Positions 40,170-48,824 of a stretch of 64,000 bases of DNA are shown one piece after another (the stretch's first letter is position 1; each line of letters starts with the position of its first letter). Below the pieces are notes generated by a model that worked only from the letters and a program-made list of their open reading frames with translations, did no database searches and was not told where the DNA came from. Origin of the DNA: Rhodanobacteraceae bacterium (GTDB lineage: Bacteria > Pseudomonadota > Gammaproteobacteria > Xanthomonadales > Rhodanobacteraceae); NCBI GenBank assembly GCA_009996615.1, contig JAACZU010000001.1:372001-436000 (forward strand), given 5' to 3'. The position numbers and the translations under genes are program-made.

Positions 40170-40208
40170 CCCTCCCCTTCAAGGGGAGGGTTGGGTGGGG
40201 ATGGTGTT
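40170..40208. repeat. Family-1 repeat left of the transposon
   Basis: CCCTCCCCTTCAAGGGGAGG then GTTGGGTGGGGATGGTGTT, 16 bp left of the transposon edge. A facing partner starts right of the element at 48781, so the transposon split an inverted repeat pair. Confidence 0.88.
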
Positions 40209-40219
40209 GCTGATGCGCC

Positions 40220-40224
40220 CTAGC
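40220..40224. repeat. Target-site duplication, left copy
   Basis: CTAGC directly before the TGT terminus; identical to 48776-48780 after the other terminus. Confidence 0.9.
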
Positions 40225-40273
40225 TGTAGGCGGACAAAAGTAATGACACCGCGCGGACAAAAGTAATGACACC
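40225..40273 (+). repeat. Left end: terminal repeat and two transposase-site copies
   Basis: Two exact copies of GCGGACAAAAGTAATGACAC (plus C), at 40230-40250 and 40253-40273, with a 23-bp period, right behind TGTA. They are the likely MuA-type binding sites of the left end. Confidence 0.88.
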
Positions 40274-40427
40274 ACTTTGGCGCAAGTCATTGATTCTTCG
40301 TTGCCGACGCGGTGCTTCCTTCGCACTTCGAATAGCGGGTCATACATCGCGATTGAAGGCGCAGTTTAGAGCCTTCAAACCGGCTTCAAGGGGCGAATGT
40401 GGGGCGTTCGAAGCTGGTGGAATAAGT

Positions 40428-40507
40428 GGGCCGGGGCGGGATTCGAACCCGCGGTACGCGGCCACCGTGGTGGCTTCCCCTCTGCCTGATCGGGGTCCTA
40501 CCGGCCC
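40428..40507 (-). other. tRNA-like sequence near the left end of the transposon
   Basis: Minus strand: a 7-bp closing stem GGGCCGG/CCGGCCC, a perfect T arm GCGGG-TTCGAAT-CCCGC and a CCCC/GGGG D-like arm. The centre folds as GCCAC-CACG-GTGGC, a 4-base loop with no usable anticodon, and one extra C sits between T arm and acceptor. So this is not a normal tRNA: either a decayed tRNA captured by the element or a tRNA-mimicking structure. The remainder of 40274-40547 shows nothing else. Confidence 0.4.
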
Positions 40508-40547
40508 GACGGAAAGACTACTGCCGACACGCCTACCGCGCCAGCGC

Positions 40548-41303
40548 TCATGCCCCACCCAGCTCGCGCCACGCGGCGCGCAGGTCGGCGTCGGTCAGGG
40601 CGCGCCCGGCGGCATGCAGGGACGCCAGCCGCAGCACCTTGGCGACGCCGCGCAGGCCGCCGGCCTTGGCGCCGATCTCGGCCAGCGTCTTCCGCGCGTC
40701 GGCGGTGCCGATGCCCCGGGCGGCGGCCACGGCGGCGGTGTCGTCGGCCGTGGTCGCGGTCAGGTGTAGGCGCCGGCCCACGCGCGAGCGCAGGCGGTCC
40801 AGGGTGGCCGCCGTGTCTCCGCCGACGAGGCGGGCGTACACGTCGCGGCTGCCGAGCAGGGCAACGCCGATGCCGGCCGCGTCGTGGATGCTGCGGAGCT
40901 GGTCGAGCGCGGCGGGTGCCAGGTGCTGCGCCTCATCCACGATCAACAGGCCGCCGGTGCCGGCGACGCGCTTGACGATCGAGCGGTGCAGCGGCGCGGC
41001 GCCGTTGCTCGGCGGGATGCCGAGCGCGGCGCATACCTCTTCCAGCGCCGGCACCACGCCGGCCGTGGCGGGCGTCATGATCGCGTGCCAGGCGTTCGCC
41101 ATGTCGGCCGCGTAGTGGCGCGCGGTGCAGGTCTTGCCGACGCCGCCCGCGCCGTAGATCACGGCCACGTCGGAGGTGGCCTGCGCGAACGCCAGCGCGG
41201 CGACGATGCGTGCGGCGGTCGGGGTTTCGATCCAGTCCGCCGGCGGCGCAACAGCGGCCGGCGCGGCGGACGGTACGGCAACGATGCGTGCAGGTGCGGG
41301 CAT
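40548..41303 (-). CDS. MuB-type transposition AAA ATPase
   Basis: 251 residues from the ATG at 41303, which has GGAGG six bases upstream. AAA+ ATPase with Walker A GAGGVGKT (51-58), Walker B GLLIVDEAQH (Asp123, Glu124) and a sensor-like LLGSRDVY, plus a short C-terminal helical domain. MuB/TniB/TnsC-class proteins bind target DNA and deliver it to the transposase. 39 bp downstream of the MuA gene. The N-terminal 25 residues are Ala/Pro-rich and less conserved. Confidence 0.88.
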   Translation of the reverse strand: MPAPARIVAVPSAAPAAVAPPADWIETPTAARIVAALAFAQATSDVAVIYGAGGVGKTCTARHYAADMANAWHAIMTPATAGVVPALEEVCAALGIPPSNGAAPLHRSIVKRVAGTGGLLIVDEAQHLAPAALDQLRSIHDAAGIGVALLGSRDVYARLVGGDTAATLDRLRSRVGRRLHLTATTADDTAAVAAARGIGTADARKTLAEIGAKAGGLRGVAKVLRLASLHAAGRALTDADLRAAWRELGGA

Positions 41304-41342
41304 GGTTCCCTCCTTCAAGGAACCCGGCGCGGCCGGTGCGGG

Positions 41343-43289
41343 TTACAGCGCGTTGCGCTTCTTCGCCATGTCGATCCAGAACACCGCTCTTTCCGCCGTG
41401 CCCTCGTCTTCCTGCGCGTCGGCCTCGACCGGCGCCGGTTTGCGGGGTGGCTGGTACAGCGCGACAGCGGCAGCGGCGGGCAGCTCAGGCTCGGGGATCA
41501 GCGGCAGCTCCGAAGGAACGTGCGCGCTGCGGGCTTCCTCCACCTTTGCAAGGGCGCGGCTCCGCTTCTTCCACTCGGCTTGCAGCTTGCGCGCTCTCTG
41601 CATGCCTTCCGTCGTGTTCCAGCCCAAGGCGGCCGTGCACTCGGCTGAGCCGATATAGGCGCCGTCGAGCGAGAACACATGCACGCCGGCATGGAGCGCG
41701 GCCGGGTCGAACCGCAGTTCAACGCGCTGGCCCAAGGCGAAGTCGCAGACCTTCTCATCCCAGTAGCGGTTGCCGGCCAACGTCATGTTTCCGTCGCGCC
41801 GGTTCACCATGACCACTTCCGAGGCGAGCAGCAGCATCGCGAGTTGTTCACGGCTGGCTTTGGTCACGACCGTGCGCGCGTAGCTCTCCGCGAAGGTTTC
41901 GTCAAAGCTGCGCCCGTCCGCGACCTCTGAACGCCGGCCCGTGCGGGCGTTGTACTCGGCGACGCCATCGGCGACGACGCGCAAGAACTCATCCAAGGGA
42001 ACGGCGTGGCTGCCGTAGTTCTCCGGCTTCGTGGTCGGGCTGTTGCCCGTGTAGGCGCCTGCAAACTCCGAGCGCTTGGCAACGTCGGTCGCGAAGTCGC
42101 GCCACGCGCGTTCGATGGGCTTCGCCTTGCCGTTGTAGGGCGTGACCCAACGCACGTCCACGCCAAGCCGTGTCAGCACGCCCTGGGGGTCTTCGGGCTT
42201 CACCTTGTAGCGGTAGCGCGTCGGGATGCCGCCGGTGTTGGTCTTGCTCGCGAACGCGCGGCCGTTGTCCAGGTGCGCGCGCTGGGGGATACCGTACTTC
42301 TCCACCATGTCGCAGAACGCCAAGCGCACCAGGTCGGCCGTTTCGCTGCGCCCGATGCGGTAGCTAAGCAACTTGCCCGAATAGACGTCTTGCCAGCCCA
42401 CCATGACGGGGCGGCCGATCGTGCCATCGGGGAACCGCACGGCCACGTCGAAGGTGTGGCCGTCCGCGTTGACGATCGCCAGCGCGGCAAGGTCGCTGCG
42501 GTCGCGCGTGATCTTCGGCCCGAGCTGCGCCAAGGCTTCATCTCCCTCGCGCATGTAGACCCGCACGGATGCGGGAAGCTCGCGCGCGACAAGGCGGGTG
42601 AAGGTCTTGATGCACGGCAGCGGCAGCCAGTCCGGGTGCGCCTTGGCGAGCCGCGCGACCCGGCGATAGCAGGCGGCCGCGTCTGGTTCTTCCAGCCGCA
42701 GCCAGTCCTTTTTGAACGCTGCCCAGGCAAGCGGATGAATCTCGGCAGGTGGCCGGCCTTCCTTCGCTTCGGGCAACAGGAACGCCAGCCAGTGCGGACG
42801 CGGGATACGTTCGACCAACTTCGCGACCCGAATAAGGGTGCGCACCTCGCGGCCCTTGATACCCGCCTCGCGCGCCTGCGCTGCTACGCGCTTGCGCGCC
42901 TCGGTCAGGCTCACGCCTTCCTCGCGCCGGACGCGCTCGACCTCCAACAGCGCATCGTGCCGCGCCTCGGCCTCCTTCTTGCGCCAGCCCTTCGCATGCC
43001 TCCACGCCTCTTCCCACTGCGCCTTGATCCGCGCTTGCAGTTTCGTATCGGCGGCCGCCTTCGCGGCGGCCTCGCGTTCGTGCTCGCGCCGCTGCGCGAC
43101 AACAATCTCAAGCTGAACGGCCTCGGGCAGGCGGTCCATCGGATACAGCCGCTGCCGGCCGCCTTGCACGGTGGTTTCGGTGTAGGGCCATGCCTCGCGC
43201 GCGGCGCGCATTTCCGCCGCTCGCTTCTTCACGCCAACGACGGTGGCGATCTCGTGAATGGTGAACTCGAACCGCCCGGCCAGTTTCAT
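41343..43289 (-). CDS. MuA-type DDE transposase
   Basis: 648 residues from the ATG at 43289. N-terminal Mu-type winged helix (FTIHEIATVVGVKKRAAE ... LYPMDRLPEAVQLEI, residues 8-62), a charged helical linker, a second DNA-binding region (about 112-175), then the catalytic core: Asp276 (NADGHTFD), Asp341 (HLDNGRAF) and Glu393 (KPIERAWRDF), spacing almost as in phage Mu. A C-terminal beta-barrel and tail follow. The element's ends and 5-bp duplication agree with this enzyme class. Starts inside the stop of the preceding gene (ATGA). Confidence 0.94.
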   Translation of the reverse strand: MKLAGRFEFTIHEIATVVGVKKRAAEMRAAREAWPYTETTVQGGRQRLYPMDRLPEAVQLEIVVAQRREHEREAAAKAAADTKLQARIKAQWEEAWRHAKGWRKKEAEARHDALLEVERVRREEGVSLTEARKRVAAQAREAGIKGREVRTLIRVAKLVERIPRPHWLAFLLPEAKEGRPPAEIHPLAWAAFKKDWLRLEEPDAAACYRRVARLAKAHPDWLPLPCIKTFTRLVARELPASVRVYMREGDEALAQLGPKITRDRSDLAALAIVNADGHTFDVAVRFPDGTIGRPVMVGWQDVYSGKLLSYRIGRSETADLVRLAFCDMVEKYGIPQRAHLDNGRAFASKTNTGGIPTRYRYKVKPEDPQGVLTRLGVDVRWVTPYNGKAKPIERAWRDFATDVAKRSEFAGAYTGNSPTTKPENYGSHAVPLDEFLRVVADGVAEYNARTGRRSEVADGRSFDETFAESYARTVVTKASREQLAMLLLASEVVMVNRRDGNMTLAGNRYWDEKVCDFALGQRVELRFDPAALHAGVHVFSLDGAYIGSAECTAALGWNTTEGMQRARKLQAEWKKRSRALAKVEEARSAHVPSELPLIPEPELPAAAAVALYQPPRKPAPVEADAQEDEGTAERAVFWIDMAKKRNAL

Positions 43290-43570
43290 CGGGCGGCCCT
43301 CGCACGTGTCATCGGGACCAGGTGCGCAAGCCACTGCGAGCATGGCAGGCCGCGCACGGCGCGACCCCAGCGCTTCAACGCGCTTTCGCTGCCCGCGCCG
43401 TCGGCGCGCAGGCGCGCGCCGACCTGCGCGCGCGCCTGCTCCAGGCTCAAGCCATTCTCTTGCAGCTCGACCACTTCGAGCAGCGCGGCACGCCGCACCT
43501 CGGCGACGTGCTGTTGCCACTCGGGGGCGGCGCGGTAGGCCGCCCATCGCATGGCCTGCCTCGCCGTCAT
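43286..43570 (-). CDS. Stand-alone copy of a MuA DNA-binding subdomain
   Basis: 94 residues from the ATG at 43570. Its residues 25-90 align with MuA-homologue residues 112-175 encoded next door: AALLEVVELQENGLSLEQAR versus DALLEVERVRREEGVSLTEA, and VRGLPCSQWLAHLVP versus VERIPRPHWLAFLLP. No catalytic residues. A lone DNA-binding part of a transposase could occupy end or enhancer sites and limit transposition. That role is inference. 4-bp overlaps with both neighbours. Confidence 0.75.
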   Translation of the reverse strand: MTARQAMRWAAYRAAPEWQQHVAEVRRAALLEVVELQENGLSLEQARAQVGARLRADGAGSESALKRWGRAVRGLPCSQWLAHLVPMTRARAAR

Positions 43571-43671
43571 CGGGCCGCCTCCAGCATCGCCCACCAGGCG
43601 ACGGACGCGAGCAGCGCGCCGACCAGCATGCACCACGCGTTTTCGGCGTCTACGTTGCGGCGGCGGTTCAT
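43567..43671 (-). CDS. 34-residue single-helix membrane peptide
   Basis: Starts MNRRRNVDAEN and continues with one hydrophobic helix (MLVGALLASVAWWAML), ending EAAR. Positive N-terminus suggests inside orientation. Exact ATGA overlaps with the genes on both sides argue that it is translated. Function unknown. Confidence 0.55.
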   Translation of the reverse strand: MNRRRNVDAENAWCMLVGALLASVAWWAMLEAAR

Positions 43672-43892
43672 CGCTCGCCCTCCCGTTCGGCATGCACCGC
43701 TGCGCGCAATGCCTCGTGTGCGGCTTCTTGCTCGCGCAGCAGACGACCGAGCAGGATCGCGATGTGGTCGCGCTCCTTGAATTGCAGGTGCCCGTCTGGC
43801 GATACCAGGTCATACACCGCCAACAGGCACGAATGCAGTTCTTCGAGTTCTTCCAGCGCGGCGCGTTGGGCGCGGGTGGCGTGCGTGCTCAT
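43668..43892 (-). CDS. Small helical protein of the transposition module
   Basis: 74 residues from the ATG at 43892. Mostly charged helix: RAALEELEELHSCLLAVYDL, SPDGHLQFKERDHIAILLGR, LLREQEAAHEALRAAV. No family recognised. Overlaps both neighbours by 4 bp, so it belongs to the same translational unit as the transposase. Confidence 0.6.
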   Translation of the reverse strand: MSTHATRAQRAALEELEELHSCLLAVYDLVSPDGHLQFKERDHIAILLGRLLREQEAAHEALRAAVHAEREGER

Positions 43893-44200
43893 GCCCCACC
43901 TCCCACGCGACGCAGGAGCGCGCGCGCGCCCTCGGCGGCATGCATGTGTGCCATCGGCTGCTCGGCTTCGATGCAGGCGCGGAGTGCAGCGAGCAAGTCG
44001 GCGTAATGATCGCAGCGCAGTGCTTCGGCGATCGCGCGCAGTTCCAGCGCGAGGGTTTCCGAATCGAAGATGCAGCGACCGGCGAGGGCGTCGGCGGCGT
44101 GCTCGATCAACGCCGGCCACGCATCGCGCGGCGCTTTAATCGGGAGGTGAAGGGATGCCGGAAGGGCAGCCGCGCGCGCGGCCAGGGCGGAACGATTCAT
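43889..44200 (-). CDS. Small helical protein, first gene of the transposition module
   Basis: 103 residues from the ATG at 44200, GAGGA upstream. Helical, with CIFDSETLALELRAIAEALR and HYADLLAALRACIEAEQPMA. Not recognised. It is the promoter-proximal gene of the six-gene run ending with the MuB homologue; a TTGACA box lies 39 bp before it. Confidence 0.6.
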   Translation of the reverse strand: MNRSALAARAAALPASLHLPIKAPRDAWPALIEHAADALAGRCIFDSETLALELRAIAEALRCDHYADLLAALRACIEAEQPMAHMHAAEGARALLRRVGGGA

Positions 44201-44823
44201 GATGCGGTCCTCAGGTAGTTGAGTGACCGCCAACCCGCTGTCAAACGGGGTGACGGACGGTACGCGGTTGACAGACCGGCCTGAGGACCGGCGAGCCTTG
44301 CGGCTCCCGCGCACCGCCCGCCATAAAGCTCGGGGGTGTGCGCCCGCTCGATGCGGGCACAAAAAATGCGCCTGCATCAAGGATGGGCGCATGTGCGCCT
44401 CAGGTCTCGGGCTGTCAAACCCGACTGCCGATTGGGCGGCAGTGGGGCGAGTCTTGCGCGACGGCTGGCGACTGTCAAGCGCAAAACCGGCGCCAGGGCG
44501 GGTGCAGCCTATCGGGCGACCGCCGCCGGCCTGCCAGACCGCATTAAAATGGATTCGAAACGCATTTGAGAGCCGCGCGGACTGCCGGGGATGGGTCGCG
44601 GCTGCGCTTTGGCGCGCGCGGCGCTCTACGGCCCGCACGCGCGGTTTCAGGAATAGGGCCGACACCGGGAGTGTTTCGGCGTCGGCGGCGAAGTCACACG
44701 GGGAGGAAAGCGCGCCGGCCCTCATTCGATCGGCGCGCGCCCAACGGGCAGGGTCCGTGCCTTCGGTGCCGGGGTTGTTCGCGCCGTTCAACGCGGGACA
44801 CTGGCCGGCTGGTCCCTTGGTGC
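44201..44823. other. 623-bp control region between the two modules
   Basis: No convincing gene on either strand; several frames stay open only because of GC content. It holds four copies of CTGTCAA or its complement (44238, 44268, 44412, 44472) and a candidate promoter reading into the transposition module: TTGACA at 44239-44244 and CAACTA at 44216-44221, 17 bp apart, minus strand. Other short inverted repeats suggest structured RNA, e.g. around 44340-44400. Confidence 0.5.
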
Positions 44824-45426
44824 TCACTCGACGCTGACCCCGATCTCGGCGGCCTGCTCGATCAGCTCGCGTTCCTGCCGTTGCAGCTCGGCAATTGCGG
44901 CGCTCAGTCGATCGTGCTCGGCGCGCAGCTCGGGCAGCGGTCGCACCGTCTCGCCTTCCCACTCCCAGCGGGCCAGCGCGAAGGCGCCGCTTAGCGCGTC
45001 CTTCATCGCGTCGCGGAACAGGAAAGCCCAGCGGTCGAACTTCAGATCGTTGCTGCCGACCAGGCAGCCGAACAGGTAGCCGTTTTCCGGCCGATGCGAC
45101 AGCGCCAGCGACAGGCGCCCATTGGCGAATCGGTGCGTGGACTCGCCGCGCTTCTCGGGCGGGTCCTGTTCGCGCTCTAGCTTGCGCGCTACGCCCTTGG
45201 CGAAGTCGTCGGCGTAGGCGTCGACCTCCGCGTGCACCAATGCCAGGTAATCGTCCTTGCGCATCGGCACGCGGAGCAGCGCGGAAAGCTCGGCTTCCAG
45301 CCCGGCGCGCTGGCGGCGCAGGTCGGCCAGCGTCGCGCGGATGATCTCGGTTTGTTCCTTCACCTGCGGCAGCAGCGCCTTGAGGGATTGGGCGGCGCTG
45401 GTGGCCTTGGTTTCCTTCGTGCTCAT
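44824..45426 (-). CDS. Coiled-coil protein downstream of the gpI-type protease
   Basis: 200 residues from the ATG at 45426. A predicted coiled coil at the N-terminus (KALLPQVKEQTEIIRATLAD ... RQRAGLEAELSALL), a central domain with RFANGRLSLALSHRPENGYL and KFDRWAFLFRDAMKDALSGA, and a second coiled coil at the end. No family recognised. Coupled to the protease by a 4-bp overlap, where Mu itself has head genes. A scaffold-like or helper-interacting role is only a guess. Confidence 0.65.
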   Translation of the reverse strand: MSTKETKATSAAQSLKALLPQVKEQTEIIRATLADLRRQRAGLEAELSALLRVPMRKDDYLALVHAEVDAYADDFAKGVARKLEREQDPPEKRGESTHRFANGRLSLALSHRPENGYLFGCLVGSNDLKFDRWAFLFRDAMKDALSGAFALARWEWEGETVRPLPELRAEHDRLSAAIAELQRQERELIEQAAEIGVSVE

Positions 45427-46274
45427 CGCGGGTTCCTCTTGTGTACGACGTTGGCGGCGTGCTGCCGGGCTTGCTGGTGGGTCAGGTGCGGGAGGGACGC
45501 CCGCAGGCCCTGCGCGACGCGCTCGATCTCCGCATTGGCGGCGGTCGCGGTGCGCGCGGCCTCGGCCTGCCCGGCGTCGGTAGTGGCGTAGCGTTCGACG
45601 GCCTTGCGCGCGTACTCGCTCAGCTCGTCGGCGCTGGCGTCGGGGAACTGCTCGCGCAGCTTGCGAAACAGCGGCTCGGCCAAGGCATCGACGGCATCCG
45701 CGCCGCCGGTAGCTGCGCCTTCGCGGTTGCTCGCATAGGCGGGGTTGTGCGCCACGTTGCCGGGAACATCCCCGGCGCGCGGGCGATAGTGCAGATGCCG
45801 TTCGTAGGCTCCCATATCGGTGTCCTGTTGTTGGTTGAGGGCGGCGAGCGCCAGATTCGGAAGGTTGGTCAGCCCGGCGCAGACCAGGCGGCCAATACGG
45901 CCGGTCGCGGGATCGAAGTCGAACACCGGCGACAGAAAGCGGTATTCGCGCGCGGCAATCTGCGCGGCGGCGCGCGCGTTCCACGCCACGCGGCCCCACA
46001 GCGCACCGGCGCGCACCTGCAGTTCCTTGATCCATCCGCCGGCCGGCGCTTCCTCGCCGTTCGGTGCGCGGTGCTGGCTGGCGTGTTCCCAGTCGATCGG
46101 GAGTTCGGTCGCGCGGGCGTTGAACGTGGTCAGAACGGCGTTCGAAGCGGCCGCATCGAACAGCCATCTGCGGCCGTCGCGGCCGGTGACCTGCGGCCCC
46201 GCCGGCAGCAACTGCACCCACTCGGGCGGCGTGCCGCTGGCGCCCATGTCGGTATTGAAAGCAACGGTATTCAT
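45423..46274 (-). CDS. Mu gpI-type phage head protease
   Basis: 283 residues. Matches the Mu-like prophage I protein family: the segment LPIDWEHASQ (Asp61, Glu63, His64), then PAGGWIKELQVRAGALWGRV, AARAAAQIAAREYRFLSPVF and GLTNLPNLALAAL. These proteins process the scaffold and capsid during prohead maturation. The C-terminal 130 residues are helical and could be scaffold-like. The element carries no capsid gene for it to act on, which is odd. Overlaps both neighbours by 4 bp. Confidence 0.85.
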   Translation of the reverse strand: MNTVAFNTDMGASGTPPEWVQLLPAGPQVTGRDGRRWLFDAAASNAVLTTFNARATELPIDWEHASQHRAPNGEEAPAGGWIKELQVRAGALWGRVAWNARAAAQIAAREYRFLSPVFDFDPATGRIGRLVCAGLTNLPNLALAALNQQQDTDMGAYERHLHYRPRAGDVPGNVAHNPAYASNREGAATGGADAVDALAEPLFRKLREQFPDASADELSEYARKAVERYATTDAGQAEAARTATAANAEIERVAQGLRASLPHLTHQQARQHAANVVHKRNPR

Positions 46275-46519
46275 CGGCGTTCCTCGGTGGTGGTGCGCGG
46301 TTCGCGGCGCCCGGCGCGCAGCCAGGCGTCCAGGTCGGCGCGCAGGTAGAGCACGCGGCCTTGCCCGCGCTGGATGTAGGGCGGCGCCTTGCCGGCCAGG
46401 CGTTTGCGGGTGCGCCAGGCGCGCAGCGTGTCGGGCTTCACGCGCAGCAGCGCGGCGGCCTCTACTTCGGTCAGAAGATCGTTCGCGCGCAGCGGCGCGG
46501 GCGCGTTACTGGATGTCAT
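46271..46519 (-). CDS. AlpA/MerR-type DNA-binding protein
   Basis: 82 residues from the ATG at 46519. Helix-turn-helix of the excisionase/AlpA type: LLTEVEAAALLRVKPDTLRA, then RRTRKRL-like basic turn, PPYIQRGQGRVLYLRADLDAWL. Such proteins regulate or assist excision in phage-like elements. Overlaps the Mor-type gene by 14 bp. Confidence 0.8.
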   Translation of the reverse strand: MTSSNAPAPLRANDLLTEVEAAALLRVKPDTLRAWRTRKRLAGKAPPYIQRGQGRVLYLRADLDAWLRAGRREPRTTTEERR

Positions 46520-46892
46520 CCGGCGGCCTGCGGTGCGGATCGGGGCGGCCGGCCGCGCGCTCGGCACGGCGCACGCGCGCCTGTTCGGCGACGATGCGTT
46601 GGACGTGGCGCACGGTCAGGGCGTAGCGCTCGGCGAGTTCCTTCGTGTTGCGGCCGTTGGCCTGCGCGAACAACGCGCGGTCGCGCTCGGCGCGGCCGAA
46701 ATGGTCCATGCGCGGCAGGTAGCAGGAACGGCCGCCGAACAACCCGCAGACGGTAATGACGACACGCTCGGCCGCGTCCAGGGCATCGGCTCCGGTGGCG
46801 CCGTGGCGGCCGAACAGGTCGGCGATCACGGCGCGCAGCTCGCCGGCCGTACCGGACCAGGGATCGAGCGCGGTCGGGTTTGCGCGGGTCAT
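46506..46892 (-). CDS. Mor-type transcription activator
   Basis: 128 residues. Pattern of the Mu Mor/C family: an N-terminal dimerisation region, then FGGRSCYLPRMDHFGRAERD, and a C-terminal helix-turn-helix NTKELAERYALTVRHVQRIV. In Mu, Mor switches on the middle operon. Here it probably activates one of the element's own modules, or a helper's. ATGA overlap with the upstream gene. Confidence 0.82.
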   Translation of the reverse strand: MTRANPTALDPWSGTAGELRAVIADLFGRHGATGADALDAAERVVITVCGLFGGRSCYLPRMDHFGRAERDRALFAQANGRNTKELAERYALTVRHVQRIVAEQARVRRAERAAGRPDPHRRPPDDIQ

Positions 46893-47101
46893 GCCGCACG
46901 CCTCGCGTCGCGCGCGGCGATGCGCGATTCAATCCAAGCGGAAACTTCGGATTCGACCCAGGCGGACGCGCGCGGGCCGAGTTTTACGCGGCGCGGGAAG
47001 TCGCCACGTGCCTCCAGGGCGTAGACGTGCGCGGGCTGCAACCCGATCCGTCGCACGACTTCAGGCATCCGCAAAAGGCTTTCATATCGCTCCCTTTGCA
47101 T
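46889..47101 (-). CDS. AlpA-family regulator
   Basis: 70 residues, with GAGGAGG seven bases before the ATG, the strongest ribosome site in the element. Typical short AlpA: LLRMPEVVRRIGLQPAHVYA, LEARGDFPRRVKLGPRASAW, VESEVSAWIESRIAAR. First gene of the second coupled module (to 44824). A 36-bp dyad lies 77 bp upstream. Confidence 0.83.
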   Translation of the reverse strand: MQRERYESLLRMPEVVRRIGLQPAHVYALEARGDFPRRVKLGPRASAWVESEVSAWIESRIAARDARRAA

Positions 47102-47177
47102 CGGTAAACCTCCTCAGACGGCAGCATTGCCGGTGCGGCGGACGATGCGGTTTTGCGGGCGGCAATGTCGCGCATCA

Positions 47178-47213
47178 GCAAACAGGGCGAAGCAATTGCT
47201 TGCTGGTGTTTGC
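47178..47213. promoter_or_regulatory. 36-bp operator-like dyad
   Basis: GCAAACA and TGTTTGC are perfectly symmetric around the inner palindrome AGCAATTGCT. It sits in the gap between the 47233 gene and the AlpA gene, a place for a repressor. Confidence 0.55.
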
Positions 47214-47232
47214 CAATGCTTGACGCGGGGCG

Positions 47233-47646
47233 CTATTTGTGATCGACGATATTTTTTGCCGCTGCCAGTCGCGCGATGACCGTTCTCTCATCAATCGGAC
47301 TGCCGTCGATTTCGAGCGACAGGCCGCGACTGCCGGCGGCTTTGACAAGGGCGCGAGCATTTTCCGCATCGGTACCATTCAGATAGCCGGCCAGTTCGGC
47401 GAGGGCGGCGATAATCAACAGGTCAACTTTGCGCGCGCGTGCGGCTGAACCTTCCTTCTTCGCAGCGCGCGCGGCCTCTGCGCGCTCGTGCTTGGACGCT
47501 TTCTCAGCGGTTGCACTGGCAATCTGCGCTTCTAGCAACTTGATCCGTAGGGCGCGCTCGCGCATTGCGTGAAGGTCGATATATCCCGGCTCCCCAACCG
47601 CCTCGCCGACCTCGCCGCGCCTTTCGTTCCTGCGTTGCTTCGCCAT
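47233..47646 (-). CDS. Hypothetical basic helical protein of the transposon
   Basis: 137 residues; GGAGAAGG before the ATG. Very basic helical N-terminal half (SKHERAEAARAAKKEGSAAR) and a C-terminal part with LLIIAALAELAGYLNGTDAE and LSLEIDGSPIDERTVIARLA. Not recognised. Separated from the AlpA gene by the dyad, so it may be a separate regulator. Confidence 0.6.
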   Translation of the reverse strand: MAKQRRNERRGEVGEAVGEPGYIDLHAMRERALRIKLLEAQIASATAEKASKHERAEAARAAKKEGSAARARKVDLLIIAALAELAGYLNGTDAENARALVKAAGSRGLSLEIDGSPIDERTVIARLAAAKNIVDHK

Positions 47647-48085
47647 CGCGCCTTCTCCGCGCCTTCAGGAAGGAAGCCACGGAAACGCGGTGAAGGAGCC
47701 GCGCTTGTCGCCCCGCCGGGCTATCCGTGGTCGCGGTAGGTTAGCACTGGCGCCCGCTGCCATCGTCGAAGCTGGATCATGCTATCGTCGGTCGTGTTGA
47801 GGCTGCACCGTATCGCGCCCTGCCTGGAGCCGGGAATGCGCCTAGGGCGTTGGCGGCGGCCGGCCTCATCTCTTGATGTGCGCGCCTTCGGGAAGGAGGC
47901 CGGCGGAAGCGTGAGGAAGGAGCCCGCGCTTGTCGCACCGCTAGGCTATCCGTGGTCGCGCTGGGCTATCATCGGCAGCGTCGGTGCGTGCATCGTGGCG
48001 TCTGGCTCATACCCAGAAGCGTCCAGGACGTTAGCGCGGGGGCGCATCCGGCAACGCGACGCCATCGCTTCGTCTGGCTCATACC
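47647..48085. other. Control region with two pairs of direct repeats
   Basis: No gene supported. An ~80-bp imperfect direct repeat at 47659-47735 and 47882-47960 (shared GGCTATCCGTGGTCGCG and GCGCTTGTCGC). A second pair at about 47997-48036 and 48069-48109 shares CGTCTGGCTCATACC and GGACGTT. They look like duplicated regulator sites. Confidence 0.55.
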
Positions 48086-48355
48086 ATGATCGTTTCGGAC
48101 GTTGGGAAGCGGGGGCTTCGCACTTTCTCAGCGACAAGGGCCGGCGGCGTGCTGAAACGAATCCTCCTCCGTGTGCTGCTCTACCCCGTCGTCGTCGTCG
48201 CAGGCGCCTGCGCGATGGTCTTCACCCTCGACGCTCTCCCGTGGCTTCCGGCCGCCTTCATTATCGCGTTCTTCGGCCTCGCCTTCGTGGCCTGCGCGGT
48301 GCTGGCGTTCGTCCATCTTGTCCGCGTGCTCGCTTGGCTATCGCTCGTCCGTTGA
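48086..48355 (+). CDS. Possible small membrane protein
   Basis: 89 residues, or 68 from a GTG at 48149 that has AAGGG upstream. Two to three hydrophobic segments: LLRVLLYPVVVVAGACAMVF, FIIAFFGLAFVACAVLAFVH. It would be the only plus-strand gene in the element. The hydrophobic pattern supports it but the start is uncertain. Confidence 0.45.
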   Translation: MIVSDVGKRGLRTFSATRAGGVLKRILLRVLLYPVVVVAGACAMVFTLDALPWLPAAFIIAFFGLAFVACAVLAFVHLVRVLAWLSLVR

Positions 48356-48377
48356 GGGGAGCGCGGCGGCGGCGACC

Positions 48378-48641
48378 AAAAACGGCGGCACGATGCGGTT
48401 TCCGGGGCGCTCTTGCGCACTTCCGCCCACATTCCACGCCTCTTGCGCACTTCCTTGCGCACTTCCATCCCTCGAAGTGCGACGCGTTTTCCGCCATTCT
48501 GGCGATGCTCGGCCCGGCCGCGCTCCGCGCAAACGGCGGTTTAATGCGGTTTTGAAGATCGTTCGAACGCCCAGACTGCGCCGCGCCTGATTTCACAATC
48601 CAAGTGGCGTTTTCGGCCGTTTTTGCGAAGTGGTGTCAACA
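48378..48641 (-). repeat. Iterated sites in the right end of the transposon
   Basis: TTGCGCACTTCC at 48413, 48443 and 48455 (the last two in tandem), with an inverted GAAGTGC at 48474; a related TTTTGCGAAGTGGTGTCAAC at 48621-48640; and AAACGGCGG-N5/6-TGCGGTTT at 48380 and 48531. Read inwards, 48641-48622 gives TGACACCACTT-CGCAA, also seen behind the left repeats (40264-40285). Confidence 0.7.
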
Positions 48642-48748
48642 GCCGGTTTTCGTGCCGCGCGCATGCTGCAAACCAGCAACCCCGCGCCCCGCTTAGCTTT
48701 CGTGGGCATTTCCCACGTAAGGCCGATACATCCCGGCCAATCCCGTAT

Positions 48749-48775
48749 CAGTGTCAATACTTCTGTCCCCGCACA
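48749..48775 (-). repeat. Right terminal inverted repeat
   Basis: Read inwards from 48775: TGTGCGGGGACAGAAGTATT then GACACTG. Matches the left terminus at about 21 of 27 positions. Confidence 0.88.
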
Positions 48776-48780
48776 CTAGC
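48776..48780. repeat. Target-site duplication, right copy
   Basis: CTAGC, identical to 40220-40224. Confidence 0.9.
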
Positions 48781-48819
48781 AAACCATCCCCCTTCCGACT
48801 CCCCTTGAAGGGGGAGGAG
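48781..48819. repeat. Family-1 repeat right of the transposon
   Basis: AAACCATCCCCCTTCCGACT then CCCCTTGAAGGGGGAGG. Faces the copy at 40170-40208 once the element is removed. Confidence 0.8.
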
Positions 48820-48824
48820 GAAAA

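Follow-up and report, generated by a model that had tools for sequence, protein, structure and literature searches.

What kind of mobile element carries the transposition genes and the ends of a Mu-like phage but no genes for terminase, portal, capsid and tail? The question is raised by 8,551 bp at positions 40225-48775 of the DNA analysed here, a window of 64,000 nucleotides from a member of the Rhodanobacteraceae (assembly GCA_009996615.1, contig JAACZU010000001.1, positions 372,001 to 436,000). The initial annotation had described these positions as an intact Mu-type element of about 8.55 kb and had proposed that it is a transposing satellite of a Mu-like phage. The description held in length, duplications and ends, and we consider it highly probable that the element belongs to a separate lineage of Mu-type transposons which have no virion and are controlled by a C4 antisense RNA. 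With regard to its role we lean slightly towards the view that in this intact element of a distinct lineage a P4-style control drives a Mu-type operon in place of an integrase and a replication gene, and that it is most likely a satellite of Mu-like phages; taken by itself, the proposition that the element is a phage satellite has in our estimation an even chance.

Ends, insertion site and transposition genes

Both ends of the element are intact. The left end, TGTAGGCG... (40225..40275, plus strand), holds two 23-bp units in perfect tandem (40230-40252 and 40253-40275; period match 100%), and the right end, TGTGCGGGGACAGAAGTATTGACAC (48749..48775, minus strand), holds a single related unit whose 18-bp core has two changes as compared to the left-end unit. 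Over the first 27 positions the two ends are identical at 21, a match that was reached by 3 of 2,000,000 random pairs of 27-mers from the window, one read directly and one as reverse complement. Further copies of the 18-bp core were not found inside the element with up to five mismatches allowed. The ends are bordered by the target-site duplication CTAGC, to which no strand is assigned (40220..40224 on the left, 48776..48780 on the right); the ends of phage Mu are likewise accompanied by a 5-bp target duplication. The insertion has split a repetitive extragenic palindromic (REP)-like doublet (40170-40220 and 48780-48820), which recurs many times in the genome, and the genes flanking the element, named from their open reading frames (ORFs), are presumably comEC-like and lolD-like. 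Going by the matches listed, 11 of 15 further genomes of the genus have both flanks on one contig with 51-853 bp between them, and the element is therefore absent from that place there; in the remaining four the two flank pieces did not occur together among the matches listed.

All genes and RNAs of the element are read from the minus strand, from right to left in the order p1, AlpA, Mor, HTH_17, gpI, p6, C4, p7, p7b, p8, MuA and MuB, and six of its ten pairs of adjacent genes overlap. The MuA transposase (648 amino acids, 41343..43289; PF02914 4e-51, phrog_310 1e-132) matches PF02914, PF09039 and PF09299 above the Pfam cut-offs and aligns with phrog_310 over 632 residues; its residues D276, D341 and E393, which we take to be the catalytic DDE triad, are invariant across the window element and the three related elements described below. 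The MuB-type ATPase (251 amino acids, 40548..41303; PF09077 1e-17) lacks the N-terminal part of phage MuB and aligns with phrog_296 at positions 297-522 only. Directly upstream of MuA lies p8 (43286..43570), a small protein or remnant similar to positions 87-183 of phrog_310, which are part of the DNA-binding region of MuA. The transposase, the ATPase, the Mor activator and the gpI protease, all of which had been named in the initial annotation, score above the Pfam cut-offs, as do the AlpA and HTH_17 regulators. Synonymous differences are proportionally more frequent than non-synonymous ones in all 12 pairs of MuA and MuB genes compared, which suggests from the sequences that both genes have been kept working.

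The element shares with Mu-like phages (Mu, B23, POA1180) the MuA/MuB module, the inverted ends with the 5-bp duplication, the Mor activator and the gpI protease. It differs from them in that neither terminase nor portal, capsid or tail genes were found, in that MuA and MuB stand at the end of an operon adjoining the left end, and in that MuB is devoid of its N-terminal part. Transposons of the Tn7 and Tn5053 type, which have TGT ends, also combine a DDE transposase with an AAA ATPase. However, the transposase and ATPase of the element best match the Mu families (PF02914/phrog_310 for the transposase) and not those of the TnsB type with TnsA, and a TnsA-like family was not detected among the ten ORFs scanned. 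The likeness of the left terminus to the Tn7 end that the initial annotation pointed out was not taken as a sign of kinship.

Related elements and the operon under probable C4 control

The core of C4, p7, MuA and short MuB occurs in the same order in three relatives of the window's genome (G000), namely in G001, a Rhodanobacter (locus L013), in G260 (L076) and in G285 (L080). Two quick trees without bootstrap place their transposases. In the first, of 75 MuAs, those of G001 and G260 form a clade with that of the window (SH-aLRT 94). The second comprises 41 rows chosen by hand, from which the longest branches were omitted and in which the partial MuA of L049 was included; here all four form one clade (SH-aLRT 99) as opposed to 37 others. 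These 37 are mostly MuAs of phages, viral contigs and prophages, and a few (e.g. L078) have no virion genes in the stretch read. The MuBs of the four elements are 251, 259, 259 and 262 amino acids long. Lengths below 290 amino acids were seen in none of 80 viral MuBs, some of them from contigs that also appear in the following comparison, and in two of 79 other MuB rows, L149 (266 amino acids) and L033, which is cut by the locus end. At the other extreme, the MuB ORFs of L128, L168 and L169 comprise 821-850 amino acids, far above the usual length, and may be fusions.

MuB is the last gene before the left end in both elements with a recognised left end, those of the window and of G260. The latter end is taken for such because two perfect 22-bp units in tandem follow directly after MuB and precede a host gene, presumably coaX-like. 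Tandem repeats of 25 bp at the start of another contig of that genome (G260:C21) were also considered as element ends and were rejected, since they occur on many of its contigs and probably belong to an insertion sequence. The G260 element is cut upstream by what appears to be a multi-copy insertion sequence, that of G285 makes up a contig of 5.6 kb, and in G001 the right end is like that of the window element, a left end not having been found.

MuA was detected in 4 of 21 near relatives; for the family the count was 9 of 233 genomes, for the order 17 of 398 and for the class 29 of 369. These counts include the window's own genome, order and class were sampled, and at class level many matches are both weak and partial. 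Single-protein searches with MuA gave no match in viral and genome contigs, a search of genome contigs with the pair alignment returned only the G001 contig, and a plasmid search returned 14 records, all below 60% identity. Mu-like prophages with head or packaging genes were recognised in G063, G156, G072, G124, G240, G017, G355 and G250, in stretches that mostly do not cover the tail regions.

Could the element then be a Mu-like prophage which has been reduced by deletion and whose remains have been rearranged? We disfavour this explanation as improbable. Its proteins of known family are indeed phage-like, p8 resembles a MuA fragment, and G260 does hold a second, deleted Mu-like prophage (L079, G260:C73), whose MuA runs directly into the head genes F and G; yet against a deletion product stand the intact ends, the separate MuA clade, the C4-p7-MuA-MuB core in four elements, the short MuB in all of them and its position beside the left end in both elements where that end was recognised. 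Moreover, the MuAs of Mu-like prophages with head and packaging genes from the same family and order fall outside the clade, and full-phage homologues of the kind that the initial annotation regarded as the mark of a deleted prophage were not found inside it.

The transposition operon differs from that of Mu, B23 and POA1180 also in its control. A C4 antisense RNA (RF01695, 44246..44328) scores 72.5 bits at a cut-off of 45, and the a1/b1 target of C4 (RF03163, 44404..44456) scores 54.2 bits at a cut-off of 46.7. Directly downstream of C4 lies p7 (103 amino acids, 43889..44200), which is conserved in G001, G260 and G285 and is the first gene of the run p7-(p7b, p8)-MuA-MuB; p7b (74 amino acids, 43668..43892) is 43% identical to an ORF at the same place in G285 (L080:2881-3105). 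Neither p7 nor residues 3-74 of p7b matched a family, and a search of viral contigs with p7 gave no match.

One of the two C4 hairpin loops and the ribosome-binding site of p7 are complementary to each other for a length of 8-10 bases. This site occurs in two versions, CCTGAGGA (window and G001) and CACAAGGA (G260 and G285), and the loop changes match. Since an AGGA core is expected at ribosome-binding sites, the weight of the loop match lies in four variable bases. In the window, G001, G260 and G285 a match as good was obtained in 0, 12, 15 and 6 of 1000 shuffles, counts that partly reflect the shared AGGA core; the match also holds in L127 (11 of 1000) and L177 (9 of 1000) and fails in G001:C6 (793 of 1000), G001:C127 (984 of 1000) and L046 (347 of 1000). 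The whole duplex that C4 forms with its a1/b1 target did not stand out in energy, 310 of 500 shuffles being as low. The C4 RNA of phages P1 and P7 is described as preventing superinfection, and two of its loops are described as binding target mRNAs, where the one partly covers ribosome-binding sites and the other is responsible for specificity (PMC5320573).

A C4 RNA lies upstream of MuA in all four elements. With 150 of 987-1866 candidates scored per genome, one C4 each was found in G000, G260 and G285, all inside these elements, and three were found in G001. No C4 at the Rfam cut-off was found in the loci of G063, G156, G072, G355, G124 and G240, and a purpose-built model, which was run on overlapping lists of 58, 56, 15 and 80 loci, found none in the loci read of the Mu-like prophages of these six genomes and of G017 and G250. 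C4 gave no match either in the 19 loci scanned out of 29 new ones from the class level (L085-L113), where wider surroundings were read for one genome only (G636, L126). Outside the four elements the model matched clearly in L046, L177 (again as L225) and L127, and weakly in L134 (23.7 bits) and L143 (21.3 bits). In L046, whose 10.3 kb contain MuA, MuB and a C-type activator and in which no virion gene was seen, the ORF just downstream of C4 is presumably of the Rha antirepressor type; L177 contains a terminase, and a p7b-like ORF lies downstream of its C4. Mu-like phages thus make use of C4 as well. A further C4 is found next to a tRNA in G001, in L124, together with ORFs that we name integrase-like and primase-like, and this locus looks like an ordinary P4-like island.

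The element and the C4 immunity of P1 and P7 have in common that a C4 loop matches a ribosome-binding site just downstream, which here is read from the sequence alone. In P1 and P7 the blocking of translation by C4 stops transcription downstream, and the controlled operon holds an antirepressor, whereas the controlled operon of the element holds MuA and MuB. By analogy, C4 would block translation of p7, transcription would stop before MuA and MuB, and the element would remain silent; upon induction MuA and MuB would transpose it to new sites.

The head protease and the case for a satellite

Apart from the transposition genes, the element carries one gene of the virion pathway, which codes for a gpI-type head maturation protease (283 amino acids, 45423..46274; PF10123 6e-44, phrog_328 5e-51). 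When 59 proteins of Mu, B23 and POA1180, tail fibres not included, were used as tblastn queries with E values up to 1e-4, gpI alone was matched in the 64-kb window, and no other head, tail, portal or terminase gene was found, as the initial annotation had stated. Residues 1-153 of gpI are 58-64% identical to four proteases from viral contigs and keep the D-W-E-H and S-P-V-F stretches. Over residues 154-283 identity to the same four falls to 24-30%, a part in which two of them, L002 and L005, share 67%. In a structural model the N-terminal domain is mostly predicted with confidence and the remainder poorly; the top match of this model in the Protein Data Bank by Foldseek is the T4 gp21 protease (probability 0.99, E 0.004, TM about 0.3 for the whole model). 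The protease of G285 belongs to another subfamily (phrog_976), is 264 amino acids long, and its alignment with the 388-410-amino-acid proteases of the Mu-like contigs L142, L144, L147 and L162 is confined to their first part; a fifth protease compared with it, that of L182, is cut by a contig end. G001 retains a remnant of 51 residues of the G285 type upstream of C4. A head protease thus precedes C4 in all three elements that can be read there (window, G285 and the remnant of G001), the G260 element being readable over too short a stretch. By sequence comparison, both intact proteases keep the protease half and are devoid of the scaffold half of their phage counterparts, which in gpI has been replaced, and in this respect, as in being under C4, the element differs from Mu-like phages.

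P4-like satellites are small and are marked by an AlpA regulator, an int-alpA RNA and an antisense RNA of the C4 type ahead of the main operon, traits which the element shares. The int-alpA RNA of the window element (RF02996, 47662..47731) scores 51.4 bits at a cut-off of 35.8, and an AlpA regulator is encoded at 46889..47101 (PF05930 1.2e-16). The AlpA regulators that had been annotated in the plural came down to this one gene. In G260 and G285 a DNA primase piece of 187 amino acids, which we take to be P4-like, is inserted between p7 and MuA (phrog_2249, 3e-27 and 9e-30; no Pfam match). On the other hand, neither an integrase nor a full primase-helicase, Psu or delta was found in the window element, and it integrates by transposition. 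P4-like satellites are described as entering the chromosome by means of integrases, and their Sid protein as being detected with a custom profile (PMC8628076).

How would an element of this kind travel? Mu-like phages package by headful together with host DNA, and the 8.5-kb element could therefore be carried along with flanking DNA and leave the packaged fragment by transposition on arrival. Such spread inside the particles of a Mu-like helper with headful packaging is the least certain step of the scheme. With transposition, any packaged fragment would suffice for re-integration, and an attachment site would not be needed. The Mor/C-type activator (46506..46892; PF08765 1.3e-16; phrog_532, late transcriptional activator) might act either on genes of the element itself or on late promoters in the helper genome, and the protease, lacking the scaffold half, might interfere with helper capsids or re-size them. 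That the elements form a satellite lineage which unites Mu-type transposition, C4 control of the P4/P1 type and a scaffold-less head protease redirecting or disrupting the capsids of Mu-like helpers is in our view a little short of an even chance.

The proposal of a transposing satellite is upheld in part, by the C4 and int-alpA RNAs, the distinct MuA clade, the short MuB and the protease without scaffold half. A number of observations weigh against it or against the distinctness of the lineage. No second copy of the element was found, the window's genome having one full MuA and, as a second and partial match, p8; nor was a helper prophage detected, PF06074 (Mu portal) matching in none of the four host genomes, which is a weak negative because control genomes were equally without a match. 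A packaging site was not identified. Among the ten window ORFs scanned, Pfam gave no family of Psu, delta, epsilon, alpha or integrase, PHROG gave no integrase, and an alpha primase-helicase was absent, the window element being without the primase piece of G260 and G285 as well. Both ends are recognised in the window element only, the others being cut by contig ends or insertion sequences, and the C4 target reaches the cut-off only in the window and G260, that of G001 lying below it. In the 75-MuA tree G285 stands beside the clade on a long branch. Finally, C4 is present in the Mu-like contigs L046 (7521-7604) and L177 (7472-7556) and is thus by itself no mark of satellites.

A rival explanation is a Mu-type transposon under C4 that moves itself without packaging by a helper, reaches other cells by other means and has captured protease, Mor and AlpA as phage genes without a role in transfer. 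We regard this as the less likely explanation, though one of some weight. It agrees with the finding of no helper, packaging gene, capsid gene or Psu, and with the biosynthetic genes downstream of MuB in G001, where the left end was not found; it sits less well with head proteases of two subfamilies upstream of C4, of which only the protease half has been kept in both intact cases. A parasite of phages or defence element, in which protease and Mor disrupt Mu-like phages in their assembly or their timing and transposition serves for upkeep only, would have the same gene content as a satellite, including a protease reduced to its catalytic half. We think it very improbable, as six proteins scanned for defence systems gave no known match apart from a weak one of a helix-turn-helix (HTH) protein to mad1 (8.6e-5).

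The satellite reading that we prefer would have consequences beyond this locus. The element may represent a little-known kind of phage hitch-hiker of a soil bacterium that inserts by transposition, and no transposing phage satellite was met with in the titles and abstract openings of the mostly open-access literature searched. If the reading is true, a transposing satellite needs no attachment site and inserts from any packaged fragment, which would be a different route of gene transfer, and a control module of the P4 style can be combined with a mobility module of another kind to which it is unrelated. The protease would also be a natural split of the protease-scaffold protein and as such useful for studying phage head size.

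Remaining features of the element and its surroundings

The right part of the element further encodes an HTH_17 regulator (46271..46567; PF12728 1.5e-10) and two proteins whose families were not recognised, p1 (137 amino acids, 47233..47646) and, between gpI and C4, p6 (200 amino acids, 44824..45426). Searches with p6 and p1 in phages gave no match, and the model of p6 is mostly helical and of low confidence.

In G001 (L013, 3302-14399) MuB is followed downstream by lantibiotic-dehydratase-like, PLP decarboxylase, FabA-like, FtsX-like and transporter genes, which are either cargo or flank. The view of the G001 element as a cargo transposon was rejected, because a stretch that by eye resembles an insertion sequence follows MuB and no left end was found, so that the genes may lie outside. 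Like the REP-like site of the window element, the flanks of the G260 and G001 elements contain CCCCTCCCC-type sequence.

Between MuB and the left end, at 40427..40508 on the minus strand, the DNA can be folded into a tRNA-like cloverleaf in which an acceptor stem, a D arm and a T arm are present and a loop of 4 nucleotides takes the place of the anticodon loop. Its fold energy is ordinary for its G+C content (z -1.47), ARAGORN found no tRNA in it, no Rfam family matched at the cut-off, and nothing similar to its 3' end was found in the other loci compared. It is perhaps a relic of the tRNA attachment site of an ancestor that used an integrase. Towards the right end two copies of a 53-nucleotide direct repeat are 83% alike (47699-47751 and 47924-47976), the first of which overlaps the int-alpA RNA, and a tandem 12-bp repeat, CTTGCGCACTTC (48442-48466), may provide binding sites.

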